A stretch of DNA of 38,745 nucleotides from positions 1 through 38,745 of the IMG/VR virus record IMGVR_UViG_3300046535_000219. One strand, 5' to 3'. The notes below the pieces were generated by a model. It saw nothing but the letters and a program-made list of their open reading frames with translations. It was not told the DNA's origin and searched no databases. The DNA comes from a virus. This document shows, one piece after another, positions 68-10,974 of this stretch. The stretch's first letter is position 1; each line of letters starts with the position of its first letter. Made by a program: the position numbers and the translations under genes.

Positions 68-679
68 ATGAGCGAAAAACCTCGAAGAAAACGCGCATCC
101 GCAGAGCCGTCGCCAGCGGCAGGGACCAAGCACAACCGCAACGAAGTTATCGAGACGTGGCCAATCGACAAGCCGCGCGACAGCGAGGCGAATGCGCGGA
201 TACATCCGGCGAAACAGATCGAGGAATTGCGCGCGTCCTTGCGGACGTACGGACAGGTTTGGCCGATCCTTGTACGCGAGGACGGCGAGATCATTGCGGG
301 GCATGGCAGGAGGACTGCGGCGGCGCTGGAGGGAATGACCGAGATCAAGGTTCTGGTGGCGCGCGGCTGGACTGAGGCGCAATGCAGAGCGTTTGCCTTG
401 CTTGATAACCGCGTGCCGCTCAATGCGGGGTGGGACGCGACGAAGCTCGCGGCGGAACTGAAGCGGGTCAAGGAAGACGGCATCGATCCGGCCTTGATCG
501 GCTTCACGGCGCGCGACATCCACCTATTGTTGACGCCCAAGGACCCAACCGAGACGGAGCCGGTGCTGACGGGGCTGACGTTCTCGGTGATCATTCGCTG
601 CGAGAACGAAGAGCACCAAGGAGAAGTGCTGCGGATGCTTGAGGAACGCGGCTTGGAATGCGAGGCGATGATCAGCTAA
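68..679 (+). CDS. Phage ParB/Srx-fold nuclease-like protein
   Basis: 203 aa. A basic N-terminal tail (residues 1-25) is followed by a ParB/sulfiredoxin-type domain. Residues 44-58 resemble the usual start of the fold (IHPAKQIEELRASLR). Residues 73-85 (GEIIAGHGRRTAA) are the conserved ParB phosphate/nucleotide-binding box, and residues 108-124 (AFALLDNRVPLNAGWD) are typical of the phage branch that accompanies DNA methylases. The C-terminal segment FSVIIRCENEEHQGEVLRML is also common in phage members. ParB-fold proteins of this kind act as nucleases, CTPases or in base modification; which applies here is unknown. It is the first gene of a plus-strand run ending in an ABC-GNAT fusion, so a joint role in DNA modification is inferred. 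It could be a lone regulator or nuclease. Confidence 0.85.
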   Translation: MSEKPRRKRASAEPSPAAGTKHNRNEVIETWPIDKPRDSEANARIHPAKQIEELRASLRTYGQVWPILVREDGEIIAGHGRRTAAALEGMTEIKVLVARGWTEAQCRAFALLDNRVPLNAGWDATKLAAELKRVKEDGIDPALIGFTARDIHLLLTPKDPTETEPVLTGLTFSVIIRCENEEHQGEVLRMLEERGLECEAMIS

Positions 680-693
680 CAAGGAGTGCAGCG

Positions 694-1110
694 ATGCCGT
701 GGGAGAAGGAGCATGAAGACGGTATGCAACAGTTTGTTGATGCCGCCGCGAAGTCAAATGGGTTGGCTATGCAGCTAGTTCTTGCGCGCGACTTCGAAGC
801 GGCGAGGCGCGCGGCCGAAGCCGGTGACGAGCAGGCGCAGGGATTTATGTTTGTGCTCGCTCAATGGGACCAGTTGACAGCGCCAGCAATCAAGGAGGGG
901 ACATTTCCGGGATGCTTTGCTTGTGATGCCGTGATCAAGCCGGGAGAGAATTTCGGCGGTCTTGTCGCATGTATGCCCATCAAGGGGGAAACAGGAGTGT
1001 TGACGGGGTTCTGTATTGATTGCATCAGCCTTGGACGAAGGGGATTGTTGCGGGTCTTGGTGGAGACAGTGAAGCAACAGATCAGTAGTGAAGGGCAAAC
1101 CTTGCAATGA
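694..1110 (+). CDS. Small Cys-pair protein, possible zinc ribbon
   Basis: 138 aa, family not recognised. The ATG at 694 is chosen over upstream in-frame starts because AAGGAG lies at 681-686. Residues 1-70 are helical and rich in Ala and charged residues. The second half has two CxxC pairs, C74/C77 and C107/C110, with C93 between them, which could hold one zinc ion. No catalytic motif is seen. It follows the ParB-like gene by 14 bp and precedes another Cys-rich small gene, so it is probably co-transcribed. Any role in the ParB/ABC-GNAT module is guilt by association. Confidence 0.7.
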   Translation: MPWEKEHEDGMQQFVDAAAKSNGLAMQLVLARDFEAARRAAEAGDEQAQGFMFVLAQWDQLTAPAIKEGTFPGCFACDAVIKPGENFGGLVACMPIKGETGVLTGFCIDCISLGRRGLLRVLVETVKQQISSEGQTLQ

Positions 1111-1119
1111 AGATCGACC

Positions 1120-1350
1120 ATGCCGCACGCGAACCATGAAAAGCGATTGAAGCGTGAGGGCTGGCCAAAGACATTTGCGCTGATGTGTTTCAACTGCAAC
1201 TGCGGGAGATTTCGGAATGGCGGTGTCTGTCCACATCAAAGTAGAAAGCTCGATCAAGTTGACACCACGCGTCAAGCAATTGTCGGGCATGTTCGACGCA
1301 CCAATTCAAAAAGTTCTATCCCACAAATGGGACGGCGATGTTCCGATTGA
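1120..1350 (+). CDS. Small zinc-binding HNH-like protein
   Basis: 76 aa, starting 9 bp after the previous stop. Residues 23-39 read CFNCNCGRFRNGGVCPH. This Cys/His-rich NGG-CPH pattern resembles the zinc knuckle found at the end of many phage HNH-type or recombination-endonuclease-like proteins. The gene overlaps the start of the ABC-GNAT gene by 134 bp in another frame. The last 35 residues therefore lie over that gene and look less constrained. It may be a remnant or a minimal zinc-finger protein. The overlap and short length make this uncertain. Confidence 0.45.
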   Translation: MPHANHEKRLKREGWPKTFALMCFNCNCGRFRNGGVCPHQSRKLDQVDTTRQAIVGHVRRTNSKSSIPQMGRRCSD

Positions 1351-2491
1351 CGAAAGACCTTGGGGCATTGGTCTGATCGTCGGCCCATCAGGGTCCGGTA
1401 AGTCCACCGTTATGCGGCATCTATTCGGTGAACAGAAAAGCCTTACTTGGAATGCGATGTCGGTGATCGATGATTTCGACAGCAAGCTATCAATAAACCA
1501 AGTCACGGATGCTTGCAGCGCAGTCGGGTTCAACACCATTCCAAGTTGGGCCAAGCCGTACGCGGTGCTGTCTACCGGGGAGAAGTTCCGTGTTGACCTT
1601 GCTCGCCATCTGATCGAGGGCGGCGACCTTGTCGTGGTGGACGAGTTCACGTCGGTGATCGACCGGCAAGTGGCGCAGATCGGCAGCCACGCGGTGCAGA
1701 AGTACATCAGGAAGACCAACAAGAAGTTCGTAGGCGTGACGTGCCATTACGATGTGATCGAGTGGTTACAGCCGGATTGGATGCTTGAACCGGCGACGAT
1801 GACGTTTCAATGGAGGGCGGTTCAGCGACGACCAGACCTTGAAGTTGAAATCGCGCGGGTCGAGCGTGCAACGGCTTGGCCCCTATTCGCTCCGTTTCAC
1901 TATCTGACAGCGGAGCTACATAGGGCAGCGGCGTGTTATTGCTTGTTCGTGGGGGGAGTACCGGCGTCATTTGCGGGAGTTCTTCATCGACCGCATTACG
2001 TCGTGCACGACATCAAGGGCGTATCGCGCGTGGTGACGCTGCCGGACTTTCAGGGGATGGGATTGGCGATGGCTTTGCTTGATACGTTGGGCGCGGCGCA
2101 TAGTGCGCTCGGGCATCGCTTTCGTATGTATCCGGCGCACCCATCGCTGGTGCGCTCGTTTGATAGATCGAAGTTCTGGAAGATGATCAAGACGCCGGGG
2201 GTGTTCTCGCCGATCCTTGGTAAGGCTTCCACGCTTGGGCGCACGATTGCGAAATTCAATCCAGACCTTGGCAAGTCTTCCGGCTTTGCGCCAGCGAACC
2301 GAACGCAGGATTATGCCAAAAAAAAATGGCACATGGGATCGCGACCGTGCGCCGTATTTGAATACGTGCACAGAGGCGATCCCATGTGCCGGGATCAAGC
2401 AACATCGCTCATAACGGGCGAAGCCGCTTCTGGACTTCGAACAGACCAAGCAATCCACGCAGCGGTGCAAAGCGCACCGGGCGCGGGTTAA
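1217..2491 (+). CDS. ABC-type ATPase fused to GNAT acyltransferase
   Basis: 424 aa. Residues ~45-195 form an ABC ATPase without membrane segments: Walker A GPSGSGKS at 56-63, signature LSTGEKFRVDLAR at 118-130, Walker B LVVVDEF at 138-144 with E143, and a switch histidine H177. Residues ~225-330 resemble a GNAT fold, with the acyl-CoA pyrophosphate loop near RVVTLPDFQGMGLA (271-284). Such soluble ABC-GNAT fusions are not transporters. Phage Mu Mom, which makes N6-carbamoylmethyl-adenine, is also GNAT-fold, so DNA base modification is a reasonable inference here with the ParB-like neighbour. The ATG has GGGAG upstream at 1204-1208. The 3' end overlaps the convergent ASCH gene by 83 bp and contains the leftward operon terminator. 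A nine-A run at 2318-2326 is a possible slippage point. Confidence 0.85.
   Translation: MAVSVHIKVESSIKLTPRVKQLSGMFDAPIQKVLSHKWDGDVPIDERPWGIGLIVGPSGSGKSTVMRHLFGEQKSLTWNAMSVIDDFDSKLSINQVTDACSAVGFNTIPSWAKPYAVLSTGEKFRVDLARHLIEGGDLVVVDEFTSVIDRQVAQIGSHAVQKYIRKTNKKFVGVTCHYDVIEWLQPDWMLEPATMTFQWRAVQRRPDLEVEIARVERATAWPLFAPFHYLTAELHRAAACYCLFVGGVPASFAGVLHRPHYVVHDIKGVSRVVTLPDFQGMGLAMALLDTLGAAHSALGHRFRMYPAHPSLVRSFDRSKFWKMIKTPGVFSPILGKASTLGRTIAKFNPDLGKSSGFAPANRTQDYAKKKWHMGSRPCAVFEYVHRGDPMCRDQATSLITGEAASGLRTDQAIHAAVQSAPGAG
2318..2390 (-). terminator. Intrinsic terminator of the leftward operon
   Basis: A perfect 14-bp inverted repeat pairs 2328-2341 with 2377-2390, with further pairing inside (CGTAT/ATACG around 2353-2365). 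Read leftward it is followed at once by the complement of nine A residues (2318-2326), a U9 tract. It begins 18 bp past the stop of the last leftward gene. This is the classical Rho-independent layout for the minus strand. It lies wholly inside the coding sequence of the convergent ABC-GNAT gene. Confidence 0.85.
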
Positions 2492-2771
2492 CAAGGACAA
2501 AGCCAAACGGCCCCTCGAAGGAGCGGTCGTTCGACTTCTCGACTACGTCAACAAGGTCAACGATGCAGACGATGCCGCCCGTTGGTAGCTCGTCGGGCAC
2601 TGCCACGCGGAAGTGCTCTGCGATCTCCTTGACCGGGCGATCATGCCAGCGTACGCCAGCATGGATCGCGAGCGGGCCACGATACTTCGTGTCCCATGTC
2701 CGGTTCTCTATACGCTTGATCCCTTCAAGGATCAGATAGGCGTAGGGTTGTCTGATAGATAGTGCCTTCAT
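2409..2771 (-). CDS. ASCH-domain protein
   Basis: 120 aa. The N-terminus MKALSIRQPYAYLILEGIKR followed by IENRTW, then KYRGPLAIHAG, is diagnostic of the ASCH superfamily, a PUA-like beta-barrel that binds RNA or modified nucleosides (some members hydrolyse N4-acetylcytidine). The central acidic segment IVCIVDLVDVV and the terminal RGLLGLFEV also fit. It is the last gene of the leftward operon. Its start overlaps the stop of the HTH gene (ATGA), so the two are translationally coupled. Its 3' end overlaps the convergent ABC-GNAT gene. The substrate is not predictable from sequence. Confidence 0.85.
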   Translation of the reverse strand: MKALSIRQPYAYLILEGIKRIENRTWDTKYRGPLAIHAGVRWHDRPVKEIAEHFRVAVPDELPTGGIVCIVDLVDVVEKSNDRSFEGPFGFVLVNPRPVRFAPLRGLLGLFEVQKRLRPL

Positions 2772-6859: not shown

Positions 6860-8389
6860 TCAATGGCGTTCGCCTACGTCAATCCCGCGAGCATTCCAAG
6901 GAGTGCTTTCGAGATGTGCTCGCACGCGCACGGGATGTCCCGTGACAGCGAACAAGACAGGGCAATGCGGCTCGGGTCCGGGATCACCGATGTCCAAATC
7001 GGTGAAACAGACAATCAAAGTCGCATCGTCAACATTTTGTGCGACGTGAGCAAACAGCGGCTTGAGATTGGTGCCGCCGCCGCCGCGCGGATCGAATTCG
7101 ACATCATCGCCCGTGCGATACTCGTCAACACGCGTGACTTGCGTGTCGCCGTACACGGCAACGACTTCGTCGATGATCCCGTCATCAAGCAAGGCTTGCG
7201 TCTCCTGACTGATCGCTGCCAGCGCGATGTCATCCATCGAGCCGGAAGTGTCGATCAAGAAAACCGCTTTGCTGACGCCGTCCTTCTGCGTCGAGGGCAT
7301 TATCAGTCCGCGTGCTTGGTGCCGCCGATTGGGGCGGTTCCAAGTTTCAACACGCAATGCACCTTGTTCGCAGAATTCGCGGAGTTCATCCCGCCAATCA
7401 CGCGGCGGGTTGTTTGCTCGTTCGATATCGCGTGAGACGTGGCCGGGCAATTGCCCGATGGCTTTCGCCATCGACGCCGCTTGCCGCACGTTCTTTTCCC
7501 ACTCGATATCCTTGTCGGCGAGTTCAGTGGCGTCTTCAGAGCTATCAAGGACTTCGCCGCACTGTCCGGGATCGCCGGAAGAGCTTTGACCCTCGTTGCC
7601 TTGTTCGTCACTGTCTGCGTCGCCCGGTTCGCCCGCGTCACCGTTGCCGGTGTCTGTGGCATCGCCCTCGCCATCGTCAGCGTCGCTGCTGCCGTTGCTT
7701 GGTTCGTCGCCGGGTTCGTCGCCCTCGCCTTGATCGCCCTCGCCTTGGTCGCCGTCTTCGCCAGCATCACTGCTATCGTCGCCGTCGCCTTGGTCCTCGT
7801 CGGTGTCAGCGTCATCGGGAGCGTCACCGCTGCCTTGTTCGCCGTCATCGTCGCCGGGATCGCTGTCGGCGTCATCGGGGGCATCGCTGCCACCTTGTTC
7901 GCCGTCATCGTCGCCATCGTCGGGCTGTTCCTGTTCTTTTTCTTTTTCCTGTTCTTGTTGCCGCCGCTTTTGCTCGGCTTCAAGCTCGCGTATCCGGTAA
8001 ATGTCCTCTGCGCTCAACCCGCGAAATCGCGGATCGATCAGCGCCCCTTTCGGGAGCGTGAAACCTTCATCGATCAGGTCGATATTGATCGCGTAGTCGC
8101 ACGCTTCGTTCCATTTGATTGGATCGCGACCATTGCGACGCGTACCATGATGTCGGGCGTCGTGCTCAGTTTCGTGAGCCTGAACGCCGTACAGTTCATC
8201 ATAGGACAACGTCGCAATGAAATCAGGATTGAAAAAGTGTTGCTTGCTGTTGGTCGCCATCGTGGGAAACTTCCGCGACGGGACCGGCTCAACATGCGAC
8301 ACAAGGACACCATAGAAACGGCGTTCCTTGATCAGATTTGCCCGCACTTTCAAGATGCGATCAAATGCTACTTCATCAATCGTACTCAT
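6860..8389 (-). CDS. VWA-domain protein with HExxH metallopeptidase-like N-terminus
   Basis: 509 aa; ATG at 8389 with GGAGCAATCTACT. N-terminal ~130 residues resemble the DUF2201_N metallopeptidase-like domain, with HETEH at 72-76 followed by HH and NEACDYAINIDL. Residues ~155-330 are an acidic, Gly/Ser-rich low-complexity linker with near-identical tandem units (EQG-G-DAPDDADSD type). The C-terminal VWA domain has a complete MIDAS: DTSGS 380-384, T440 and D464 (FTDLDIGD). VWA proteins of this type work with MoxR AAA+ ATPases to remodel or insert metal into protein complexes. The MoxR gene is two genes upstream in the same transcript. Cytoplasmic; target unknown. Confidence 0.88.
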   Translation of the reverse strand: MSTIDEVAFDRILKVRANLIKERRFYGVLVSHVEPVPSRKFPTMATNSKQHFFNPDFIATLSYDELYGVQAHETEHDARHHGTRRNGRDPIKWNEACDYAINIDLIDEGFTLPKGALIDPRFRGLSAEDIYRIRELEAEQKRRQQEQEKEKEQEQPDDGDDDGEQGGSDAPDDADSDPGDDDGEQGSGDAPDDADTDEDQGDGDDSSDAGEDGDQGEGDQGEGDEPGDEPSNGSSDADDGEGDATDTGNGDAGEPGDADSDEQGNEGQSSSGDPGQCGEVLDSSEDATELADKDIEWEKNVRQAASMAKAIGQLPGHVSRDIERANNPPRDWRDELREFCEQGALRVETWNRPNRRHQARGLIMPSTQKDGVSKAVFLIDTSGSMDDIALAAISQETQALLDDGIIDEVVAVYGDTQVTRVDEYRTGDDVEFDPRGGGGTNLKPLFAHVAQNVDDATLIVCFTDLDIGDPGPEPHCPVLFAVTGHPVRVRAHLESTPWNARGIDVGERH

Positions 8390-8411
8390 AGTAGATTGCT
8401 CCGTGATTAGA

Positions 8412-8431
8412 ACCGTCCTTGTTGGGACGGT
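8412..8431 (-). repeat. RBS-side hairpin
   Basis: ACCGTCC/GGACGGT, 7 bp, with loop TTGTTG, lies between the type B hairpin and the GGAGCAA box of the VWA gene. Equivalent ACCG..CGGT stems occur at 9393-9411 and 10996-11011, with sequence-different but paired counterparts at 11282-11296 and 11611-11634. Confidence 0.7.
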
Positions 8432-8446
8432 AGTGCTCGGATTGAA

Positions 8447-8483
8447 CACTGTGGGGCGGCGCACGAATGCGCCGCCTTCAGTA
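8447..8483 (-). repeat. Type B intergenic hairpin, copy 2
   Basis: Outer CACTG and CAGT(A) flank a 9-bp stem GGCGGCGCA/TGCGCCGCC with loop CGAA (8455-8476). It sits between the stop of the 292-aa gene and the VWA gene. Confidence 0.8.
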
Positions 8484-8493
8484 GTCAGCCGTA

Positions 8494-9372
8494 TCAACCA
8501 AACAATGCACTAACAGCACTGACAATCTGATCAGCGCTTTTGCGCACGTCGGCGCGCACCGCGTCGTTCTCGCGGAGCGTTTCGGGTTCCTCGACGCACA
8601 ATTCCTTGACGATGCGATTTGTGATCGCCGTCAATTTGGCGTCGCCTGTCAGATTGAACGCGGGCAGCAATTCGGCTAACTCGCGGACATTTCCAACAAG
8701 ACTGTCGCGGAAGCATTTGCCATCGGTGGTCTTATACTCACCGAGTTTTTCGGACATGCGACCAACGGTATCGATGATCCGTTGTGCCGCATCCTGCATC
8801 GCCTTGTTGACTGCGTCCTTGGACGTAGTCTCCAATTGCTGGCGTATTTCCTCAACGGTGTCTTCGTCCAGTTCAGAACGAAAATCAGTCGCATCAGGAA
8901 ACGGCAGGATTGTCAGTTCGAAGCGGAACTTCGATCTGATTTCCTTGGCCGAAGGATAATCGGCCGCATTGAACAGGCCGTTTAACTCCTTCTGGCGTTC
9001 CGCAACAAACGAAGGAAAGTCGGCGGCAAACTTATCCGCCGCCTCGTTGAATTCCCGCTTCAAGTTCCGAAATTCATCGGTGAACTTCGTATACAAGGCA
9101 TTCGAGAGAATGCGCGGGCCTTCGTCTACCCACGGCAGCGTCATCTTGTAGTGCATATGACGTGCCTTGGATGCCGCGCCGACGATGTCGGCAAGGTGCT
9201 GTGCGGCGATCAACAACTTGTTGTACCGTCCAGCGTCCTTGGTCGCGTTGTATTTGGTGTTCGTCTCGTCGGTGACTTTCTTGTCGAGCTTGCGAGCCGT
9301 CCAAGAAGAGATGTTCACCGAAACAAGAAGAGCCTTACGCGACAGCGGTGTTGTAGTTGTAATCTTAGTCAT
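8494..9372 (-). CDS. Helical protein of the MoxR-VWA triad (DUF3150-like)
   Basis: 292 aa, almost all helix. ATG at 9372 has GGAGCAATCTT upstream. The N-terminal part LVSVNISSWTARKLDKKVTD, the segment WVDEGPRILSNALYTKFTDE and the coiled-coil FRNLKREFNEAADKFAADFP are reminiscent of DUF3150-type proteins that travel with a MoxR ATPase and a CobT/VWA protein on plasmids and phages; the family name is tentative. It lies exactly between the MoxR and VWA genes, each pair separated by a type B hairpin, so it is probably the adaptor or substrate-binding part of a three-part machine. No enzymatic motif is visible. Confidence 0.75.
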   Translation of the reverse strand: MTKITTTTPLSRKALLVSVNISSWTARKLDKKVTDETNTKYNATKDAGRYNKLLIAAQHLADIVGAASKARHMHYKMTLPWVDEGPRILSNALYTKFTDEFRNLKREFNEAADKFAADFPSFVAERQKELNGLFNAADYPSAKEIRSKFRFELTILPFPDATDFRSELDEDTVEEIRQQLETTSKDAVNKAMQDAAQRIIDTVGRMSEKLGEYKTTDGKCFRDSLVGNVRELAELLPAFNLTGDAKLTAITNRIVKELCVEEPETLRENDAVRADVRKSADQIVSAVSALFG

Positions 9373-9476: not shown

Positions 9477-10502
9477 TTATTGGACGTTGATGTCTTGATA
9501 CTTCACCGCCCACTCTCCGTAAGCGGCGGTGTTTTTTAGTGTCTCGTCGCGTGTTGTTGCATCGTGCACGACCAACATTCCGCTTTCACGCGGAAGTCGC
9601 TCGGCGTATTTAACGACCGCAGGCATAGTCGCCTTGGTCGCCATACGCGCAAGACCCGTGCACGTCGCGAACCTGATAGACGGCTCAGTCGGCACCGGAG
9701 CATTCACCGGGTCCTTGAGGATATCTTCCAAGGAACCAATCGAATGATACAGGTCGATAAAGCCATCGATCTCCGATGCGACTGCATCGCCCACGTGGGC
9801 AGCAAGCAATCGCACGCGGTGTCCGCGCGGTGCGTTGACGTATTTCGCGGCACGCGTGATGGATCGCGGTGTCGGAAATGCGTTCTCGTCGCCAACAGGC
9901 ATCATGTGCAAGCATTCGCGCCGCAGTCTGATGAAGGCGACCATTTCAGGCGCAACGCCATTGGCGTTTGCCCAATCGCACCAAGCAACAACATCGGGAG
10001 CCACGAACAAATGCGCAAAGCGATTGCGCAATGCCGTTGGCATTCGTTGCGCGGATGCGCGATCAGCGACGCGGTTTCCTGCGGCGACGATAACCCATCC
10101 TTTCGGCAACTCATACTCACCGACTTTACGATCAAGGATCAACTGGAACATGACCGCCATCATTTGAGGCGATCCAGTGTTGATCTCGTCAAGGAACAGA
10201 ATGCCGAATTCGCCATCGCGATCAACGCGGGGAAGTTCGTCAGGGACGAACCACCTTGTTGTTCCCGTGACCATGTCTGGAACCGGAATTCCTCGCACGT
10301 CAACGGGCTCGCGAATGTTGGTCCGAAACTCAATCACCTTGCGGGATGTTTCCATTCCCATTTGGCGAATGATGTCGGACTTGCCGACGCCGGGCTTTCC
10401 CCAAATCATTACGGGATCACCTTGATCGGTCAGCAGTCGCACAAGAAGTGCGGCTTCTGAAATCGTACATTCGTGTTCTTTGATTGATAGTACGTTACTC
10501 AT
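9477..10502 (-). CDS. MoxR-type AAA+ ATPase
   Basis: 341 aa; ATG at 10502 has GGAGCAACTAGCT upstream, so a much longer in-frame extension is rejected. AAA+ core: Walker A GKPGVGKS (35-42), Walker B ILFLDEI (101-107), sensor-1 Asn in VAAGNRVADRAS (N143), and Arg-finger region ALRNRFAH (158-164). The insert EFRTNIREPVDVRGIPVPD after helix 2 is typical of the MoxR clade. MoxR ATPases pair with VWA proteins to remodel protein complexes; the VWA partner is two genes downstream. Cytoplasmic hexamer expected. Its presence on a phage suggests host-complex remodelling, a counter-defence role, or a virion assembly aid; the sequence does not decide. Confidence 0.92.
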   Translation of the reverse strand: MSNVLSIKEHECTISEAALLVRLLTDQGDPVMIWGKPGVGKSDIIRQMGMETSRKVIEFRTNIREPVDVRGIPVPDMVTGTTRWFVPDELPRVDRDGEFGILFLDEINTGSPQMMAVMFQLILDRKVGEYELPKGWVIVAAGNRVADRASAQRMPTALRNRFAHLFVAPDVVAWCDWANANGVAPEMVAFIRLRRECLHMMPVGDENAFPTPRSITRAAKYVNAPRGHRVRLLAAHVGDAVASEIDGFIDLYHSIGSLEDILKDPVNAPVPTEPSIRFATCTGLARMATKATMPAVVKYAERLPRESGMLVVHDATTRDETLKNTAAYGEWAVKYQDINVQ

Positions 10503-10525
10503 AGCTAGTTGCTCCGCTAAAGAAA

Positions 10526-10547
10526 ATGGCCCGTCTGTGCGGGCCAT
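10526..10547 (-). repeat. RBS-side hairpin of the MoxR gene
   Basis: ATGGCCC/GGGCCAT, 7 bp, 8-base loop, about 10 bp upstream of the GGAGCAA box. A second stem AAACACC/GGTGTTT (10550-10567) next to it overlaps the outer arm of type A copy 7, so the two cannot form together. Confidence 0.7.
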
Positions 10548-10562
10548 TAAAACACCGTTTGG

Positions 10563-10605
10563 TGTTTCGTGCTGCGCTCCTAACAAGGAGCGCAGAGGCG
10601 AAACA
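10563..10605 (-). repeat. Type A intergenic hairpin, copy 7
   Basis: Outer TGTTTCG/CGAAACA (fully paired on both strands, replacing the G-U of other copies by A-U), inner 10-bp stem CTGCGCTCCT/AGGAGCGCAG with loop AACA. Confidence 0.85.
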
Positions 10606-10608
10606 TCG

Positions 10609-10974
10609 TTAGATGCTATCAAACAAGGCGGCTTCGGCTTCGGCGAGTGTGGGCCGCGCCTCGTTGCAAGGGTGCGTCCAAGAAAACACATACTCGCCGC
10701 CCTCGCAGCGTATCCACCAGATTTGCCCGTCCCAATCGTAGGAATAGACTTCGCTGGCGGGTGCGTTGCTCGGGTACAAGTCATCCACGTTCCTTGTTGT
10801 GGATCGTGTCGCGCGGAACTGTTCAAGAGAAACGCGCGTGAGACGCGCGATTATCTCGGTGTATTCCGTTTCTTGTTCCTCGCTTGTGCAGTAATCAGAC
10901 CGCATTGTTTTAAGACCGCAAAGGATCATAGATAGATCGGCTGCGGTGACTTGGATAAAGGACTTAGCGATCAT
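10609..10974 (-). CDS. Hypothetical protein (121 aa)
   Basis: ATG at 10974 with GGAGCAACTACC, the consensus site of this operon. The N-terminal half is helical (SMILCGLKTMRSDYCTSEEQ, a long charged helix to ~residue 60). The C-terminal half is beta-rich and aromatic (SYDWDGQIWWIRCEGGEYVF), ending in an acidic helix TLAEAEAALFDSI. Four cysteines are scattered. No family recognised. It lies immediately upstream of the MoxR gene in the transcript and could be linked to that system. Confidence 0.65.
   Translation of the reverse strand: MIAKSFIQVTAADLSMILCGLKTMRSDYCTSEEQETEYTEIIARLTRVSLEQFRATRSTTRNVDDLYPSNAPASEVYSYDWDGQIWWIRCEGGEYVFSWTHPCNEARPTLAEAEAALFDSI

Follow-up and report, generated by a model that had tools for sequence, protein, structure and literature searches.

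The left end of the 38,745-bp virus record IMGVR_UViG_3300046535_000219 (hereafter the window, meaning the whole stretch analysed) encodes a ParB-like protein and a single polypeptide that joins an ABC ATPase to a GNAT acyltransferase domain (ABC-GNAT). The record belongs to a contractile-tailed phage, with genes for tail sheath, terminase, portal and major head protein. Comparison with relatives reveals that the conserved unit consists of ParB and ABC-GNAT only, and we consider it probable that the two form one machine which acylates bases of the phage DNA and shields the genome. This reading is supported by the coupling of ABC-GNAT to ParB, by matches of the ParB protein to DNA-methyltransferase families, by the exchange and co-occurrence of ABC-GNAT with Mom, the DNA enzyme of phage Mu, by accessory enzymes dedicated to ABC-GNAT, and by a published prediction with a homologue in Tenacibaculum phage pT24. 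Indeed, a DNA-modification function was predicted before, and the window adds a member: a jumbo-phage survey (PMC7824862) cites Iyer 2013 (Nucleic Acids Research (NAR) 41:7635, PMC3763556) for the prediction that a GNAT paired with an ABC ATPase modifies a DNA base with an acyl group in an as yet uncharacterised way, and gives pT24 as an example carrier. A DNA-modification system had also been proposed for the window in an original prediction made from its sequence alone; that role stands as the best reading in view of the ParB link, the Mom exchange, the co-occurrence with Mom and the published prediction, whereas the part assigned there to two cysteine-rich open reading frames (ORFs) is not supported.

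ParB and ABC-GNAT as a conserved unit

The elements of the unit in the window are as follows.

68-679, plus strand: ParB/Srx-fold protein, 203 amino acids (aa)
1217-2491, plus strand: ABC ATPase-GNAT acyltransferase fusion, 424 aa
1382-1405, plus strand: Walker A, GPSGSGKS, residues 56-63
1568-1585, plus strand: ABC signature, LSTGEK, residues 118-123
1628-1648, plus strand: Walker B and catalytic Glu, LVVVDEF, residues 138-144
1745-1747, plus strand: switch histidine, H177
1829-2371, plus strand: GNAT domain, approximately residues 205-385
1898-1903, plus strand: His228-Tyr229 dyad of the GNAT domain
2051-2068, plus strand: acyl-CoA (coenzyme A) pyrophosphate loop, QGMGLA, residues 279-284

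ABC-GNAT matches phrog_11143 (E 7.5e-95), and homologues are present in 81 phage records. Its start codon is kept in a related locus (L005), together with the same GGGAGAT site. The ATPase half scores above the cut-off of Pfam ABC_tran and has all of its elements, which are invariant or nearly so across 65 homologues: G56, S58, G59, G61 and K62 of Walker A, L118, S119 and G121 of the signature, D142 and E143 of Walker B, and H177 never vary. Only about 55 residues separate Walker A from the signature, and matches to the PADLOC families mad3 and mad8 are limited to the ATPase motifs. The AlphaFold2 model of the full-length protein is confident (predicted local distance difference test, pLDDT, 88; predicted template modelling score, pTM, 0.77), and the GNAT domain modelled alone reaches a pLDDT of 85. 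The latter resembles solved GNAT acetyltransferases in Foldseek (E down to 7e-7) and in VIA-align (Z 14.7, root-mean-square deviation 3.4 over 137 residues). QGMGLA agrees with the Q/RxxGxG/A acyl-CoA loop of the GNAT superfamily; among the 65 homologues, P276 and G280 are invariant and Q279 and G282 nearly so. The His228-Tyr229 dyad is invariant in 83 homologues, and Arg271, Pro276, Gly280 and Trp321 are further invariant residues of the domain. The complete ABC motifs and GNAT-type domain that the original prediction had read in one polypeptide are thereby confirmed, as is the GNAT fold of residues 220-340, which it had singled out for structural comparison, although the domain has wider limits (about 205-385).

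The protein also shares two features of the family described in the survey, namely an ABC ATPase coupled to a GNAT and homology to the pT24 locus (tblastn E 5e-52, 37% identity, residues 49-318), where the annotation shows two ABC genes. The domain pair is the same as in the predicted system, but in pT24 ABC and GNAT are two ORFs, while the window has a single polypeptide. Separate ABC and GNAT ORFs also occur in Streptococcus, Lactococcus and Oenococcus.

The first gene had likewise been read as ParB-fold, and rightly so: it exceeds the Pfam ParB_N cut-off (28.4 versus 26.3 bits) and matches phrog_620, 'ParB-like', at E 7e-41. A GHGRR nucleotide-binding box lies at residue 78 (nucleotide (nt) 299). 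Against the canonical partition ParB model TIGR00180 it scored 37.8 bits (cut-off 58.45), with residues 44-116 alone matched. Its affinities lie with DNA-modifying proteins, namely phrog_498 'DNA methyltransferase' (E 1e-37), PADLOC MTase_II (E 4e-23) and, by tblastn, many phage proteins annotated as DNA methyltransferase. The ParB domain is thus closely similar to that of the phage ParB-DNA methyltransferase fusions of phrog_498; in those fusions, however, the modifying enzyme is a methyltransferase, and in the window it is ABC-GNAT.

The gene neighbourhood was surveyed in 190 loci, comprising 80 viral-contig loci, 80 genome-contig loci (both sets being the best-scoring loci, not a random sample) and named phages. 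A non-redundant set of 175 was obtained by merging sequences more than 75% identical and adding some further loci. ParB lies upstream of ABC-GNAT on the same strand in 167 of the 190 loci and in 163 of the 175 non-redundant ones, where two more are truncated by the contig end. The genes typically abut or overlap (median gap -1 nt). By contrast, among 86 control loci carrying Mom, ParB was found anywhere in four and adjoining in about three, which argues that the ParB link is specific to ABC-GNAT; on the same count we rejected the idea that enzymes which place acyl groups on DNA generally have ParB beside them. In two planctomycete genomes, ParB, ABC and GNAT are even fused in a single ORF (L121 4266-6107, L185 4314-6149), and Pfam confirms ABC and GNAT in the former. 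The survey, which the original prediction had suggested as a check, hence bears out the association of ABC-GNAT with ParB.

The 80 best genome-contig relatives (L111-L190) are mostly from Planctomycetota and Nonomuraea. Variant arrangements were also seen. SSU5-like (L028 1611-4770) and Stenotrophomonas (L029 2096-5127) phages have two ParB genes and a distant stand-alone ABC gene, and SSU5 encodes a further protein with a marginal GNAT match (E 0.069). In Microbacterium phage Appa (L193 2469-3621), ParB overlaps a Mom gene, forming a ParB-Mom pair without ABC.

Exchange with Mom and dedicated accessory enzymes

Two sister Mu-like Porphyromonas phages, in which transposase, MuB and Gam were found, have 2,762 bp of tail genes in common (84.8%), as well as the terminal 87 bp of the right end (83%). 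Between these shared stretches one phage carries Mom and the other ABC-GNAT with a formyltransferase. Mom takes the corresponding right-end position in Mu and in Pseudomonas phage JD024. In other words, ABC-GNAT can replace Mom in its genome slot. A second exchange was sought via sister phages of Komp_PAO1_1, but no near relative of it was found in the collection. In five further loci (L328, L312, L313, L316 and L337), Mom stands just upstream of ABC-GNAT and formyltransferase; the Mom of L328 is confirmed by Pfam PF25680 (E 6e-52). Similarly, Aeromonas phage PX29 possesses both Mom and ABC-GNAT. Where such cassettes combine the two acyltransferases, one phage may make use of both. The cassette of L328 (1290-4190), as in the other four loci, reads Mom, a short ParB-like ORF, ABC-GNAT and formyltransferase.

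Some relatives encode further enzymes downstream of ABC-GNAT. One set has PanD, an aspartate decarboxylase (Pfam E down to 2e-33), next to a short protein of CoA-transferase family III; another has a formyltransferase. Among laboratory phages, Rhodococcus phage Jace represents the former and Gordonia phage Axumite the latter, while Leptospira biflexa phage LE4 has the core alone.

PanD and CoA-transferase family III: L014 4098-5206; L102, L097, L116, L174, L175, L178, L277-L302
Formyltransferase directly downstream of ABC-GNAT: L012, L015, L017, L024, L032, L304-L383

Reverse searches indicate that these enzymes are dedicated to ABC-GNAT. With the CoA-transferase as query, 27 further viral loci were recovered, 26 of which contain ABC-GNAT and 22 PanD, i.e. 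in viral contigs this family occurs almost exclusively beside ABC-GNAT. With the formyltransferase, ABC-GNAT was present in 76 of 80 loci (directly upstream in 75). All five loci of these searches that lack it begin at a contig edge. The two sets of loci do not overlap at all. In a tree of the 175 ABC-GNAT sequences built by a quick method (FastTree), the formyltransferase set forms a single clade (support 100). The CoA-transferase label requires 8 changes on this tree and that of the ASCH gene, discussed below, 22, so that both were gained or lost repeatedly.

The enzymes point to amino-acyl or formylated marks in the relatives. PanD produces beta-alanine, and CoA-transferase family III enzymes move CoA; beta-alanyl-CoA is therefore the natural guess for the donor in the PanD/CoA-transferase loci. 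For the formyltransferase clade, the guess is formylation of the amine of an added aminoacyl group. In principle the partnership with PanD could instead reflect maturation, as E. coli PanD is matured by the GNAT-fold protein PanZ, although most ABC-GNAT loci are without PanD. A literature search for phages that combine ParB and GNAT with PanD, CoA-transferase or formyltransferase yielded no paper, nor did one on COG2401. These neighbour-enzyme clues are new here; the neighbourhood may in part have been described already in Iyer 2013.

Tentatively, these observations could be extended to a modular amino-acyl DNA hypermodification, with a ParB-ABC-GNAT core that acylates bases throughout the genome, a swappable PanD plus CoA-transferase III or GAR-transformylase-like enzyme, and ASCH readers, a scheme that may well not hold in this form. 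If true, it would represent a novel type of base modification in DNA, with N-beta-alanyl or N-formyl-aminoacyl groups placed by a complex driven by nucleoside triphosphates. The ABC-GNAT family occurs in hundreds of phages and prophages from several bacterial phyla under labels such as 'unknown function' (phrog_11143) or 'ABC transporter', and DNA acylation, if true, would be a common and overlooked protective layer. The neighbour enzymes also suggest what to look for by mass spectrometry in named phages that can be cultured, namely nucleosides with a beta-alanyl or formyl-aminoacyl group.

Proposed mechanism and alternative targets

Among the relatives of ParB are parts of phage DNA methyltransferases. 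If DNA is the target, ParB might load or position the complex on the phage DNA, which the ABC dimer would enclose or present in an ATP-dependent cycle. The GNAT domain would then move an acyl group from acyl-CoA onto the exocyclic amine of a base, and the acyl mark would protect the phage genome against host nucleases. In relatives, dedicated enzymes probably tune the group, either by supplying a donor that may be beta-alanyl-CoA (PanD and CoA-transferase) or by acting on the added group (formyltransferase); the window, without such accessory enzymes, would draw on host acyl-CoA. The product of a convergent ASCH gene may read the mark.

Several observations weigh against DNA acylation. We found no experimental report of a modified nucleoside for any family member. 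The acyl-donor enzymes PanD and CoA-transferase are absent from the window, as is the formyltransferase. The exchange with Mom was observed at a single slot within one phage group, and accessory genes with no relation to each other can also be swapped at such sites; the alignment of the GNAT domain with Mom by hhalign is not significant (E 0.043, probability 1.2%). Finally, RimI and Naa50, the nearest GNAT folds of known structure, acetylate protein N termini.

This last point is what speaks for an unlikely alternative, in which the GNAT serves the takeover of the host by acylating protein, such as host RNA polymerase, ribosomal or nucleoid proteins, while ParB and ABC bring it to DNA-bound targets. 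The common GNAT fold, however, says little on the substrate, and the ParB relatives belong to DNA methyltransferases. The Mom exchange, the co-occurrence with Mom and the dedicated acyl-donor and formyl enzymes better fit a mark on nucleic acid.

Such a mark could also be set on RNA, and here the pairing of an NTPase with a GNAT has a counterpart. TmcA is an NTPase-GNAT enzyme that makes N4-acetylcytidine (ac4C), and the module might act on tRNA or mRNA in the same manner. Furthermore, RNA is frequently bound by ASCH and PUA-like domains, and the ASCH enzyme YqfB strips acyl groups from N4-acylcytidines (PMC6972931). Yet ParB is a DNA-associated fold whose relatives here are parts of DNA methyltransferases, the ATPase is of the ABC type and not a helicase, and the slot is exchanged with a DNA enzyme. 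We rate RNA acylation as unlikely, somewhat more so than acylation of protein.

We regard it as very unlikely that the GNAT domain is a divergent Mom which makes the same N6-(carbamoylmethyl)adenine. Similarities to Mom of phage Mu (PF25680, PDB 8bv8) do exist: both have the GNAT fold and an invariant His-Tyr pair (His58-Tyr59 in Mom), which the weak hhalign alignment pairs, both occupy the same slot in sister Mu-like phages, and Mom has an occasional ParB neighbour, as in Appa. In a viral structure library, a phage Mom model stood among the GNAT matches at rank 14 (E 2e-4). Against this, Mom is without an ABC domain and has no significant sequence similarity to ABC-GNAT, a search of the window with the Mom hidden Markov model (HMM) gave zero matches, and Mom is absent among the Pfam matches listed. 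The SFAD...GxxYxAxN stretch, invariant in a six-member Mom alignment, is missing from the ABC-GNAT family consensus; conversely, the QxxGxG/A loop of ABC-GNAT is not seen in the Mom alignment. Structure 8bv8 was not among the best 50 matches listed in either PDB structure search (Foldseek, VIA-align). The presence of both enzymes in PX29, L328 and other loci suggests different products. Membership of the Mom family, to which the original prediction had likened the GNAT domain, is thus rejected by sequence; that ABC-GNAT works like Mom is reasonable, that it is a Mom is not.

A membrane transporter with an incidental GNAT, to which the annotation of many records ('ABC iron siderophore transporter', for instance) and Foldseek matches to transporter ATPase domains would point, can practically be dismissed given the constant ParB link, the short spacing from Walker A to the signature, the lack of any permease among the clustered neighbours and of any transmembrane-like stretch (hydropathy maximum 1.74, within a GNAT strand). 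Acylation of phage DNA by ParB and ABC-GNAT remains the reading that we favour.

Adjoining genes of the window

Four co-directional plus-strand ORFs lie at the left end (68-679, 658 or 694 to 1110, 1120-1350 and 1217-2491), and a convergent gene follows. Those outside the conserved unit are:

694-1110, plus strand: orphan protein, 138 aa
1120-1350, plus strand: decayed HNH endonuclease ORF, 76 aa, cysteine-rich
2409-2771, minus strand: ASCH-domain gene

The second gene probably starts at 694, downstream of AAGGAG, and its product is accordingly taken as 138 aa. This protein has no library match and no relative in Pfam, PHROGs, NCBIfam or phages, and the relatives of the module have no counterpart. 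The third ORF aligns, with an internal deletion, to an intact HNH endonuclease ORF in L005, which has the same position and the same overlap with the ABC-GNAT start. It retains the nine N-terminal residues and the final third, while the HNH core, i.e. the catalytic middle, is gone; the ORF is not a working part of the module. Window positions 1148-2211 and L005 1575-2635 have 74% DNA identity, and the preceding stretch does not align. Since ParB directly abuts ABC-GNAT in relatives, both ORFs are insertions. A Com-like zinc-finger regulator (Com of Mu also overlaps mom) was considered for the 76-aa ORF and rejected in view of the intact HNH in L005. In Gordonia phage AnClar, an HNH gene occupies the slot held by ParB in sister phages. 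The original prediction of a four-gene system is therefore correct as to four co-directional ORFs but not as to a conserved unit, which comprises ParB and ABC-GNAT alone; its two cysteine-rich proteins turn out to be an orphan and an HNH with deleted middle.

The ASCH gene (Pfam ASCH, E 1.6e-9) overlaps the 3' end of ABC-GNAT by 83 nt, and its closest solved relatives in a PDB search are the ASCH domains of human ASC-1 (E 1e-10). ASCH genes occur in 38 of the 190 ABC-GNAT loci (near-copies counted); in 28 cases the distance to the ABC-GNAT stop is at most 365 bp, and the orientation is mostly convergent. None was found in the 86 Mom loci, whose flanks were shorter. The gene is probably linked to the module. 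Other GNAT systems are likewise accompanied by ASCH and EVE proteins, for which a function in reading modified bases has been proposed (PMC7641849), and the window protein is a candidate for such a reader. Compared by eye with the Lys21-Thr24-Glu74 triad of YqfB (PMC6972931), its motif GIKRIENR seemingly keeps Lys and Arg but not Thr, and the PDB search aligned it to ASC-1 and not to YqfB; as the Thr nucleophile is apparently absent, a reader is likelier than an eraser. The GNAT-EVE/ASCH systems (Iyer 2013; PMC7641849) are similar in that they, too, have an ASCH protein close to a GNAT for which acylation of a DNA base is predicted. They differ in that EVE (often PIN) domains replace ABC and ParB, and they are grouped with toxin-antitoxin-like systems.

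An inverted repeat at 2328-2390 (23-nt arms, 17-nt loop) is located near the 3' end of the ABC-GNAT coding sequence, directly ahead of the convergent ASCH gene; it might act as a terminator or represent a hairpin that was inserted there. Elsewhere in the window, a minus-strand operon includes an HNH endonuclease (phrog_1314, 6860-8497) and an ATPase (phrog_1297, 9477-10826).

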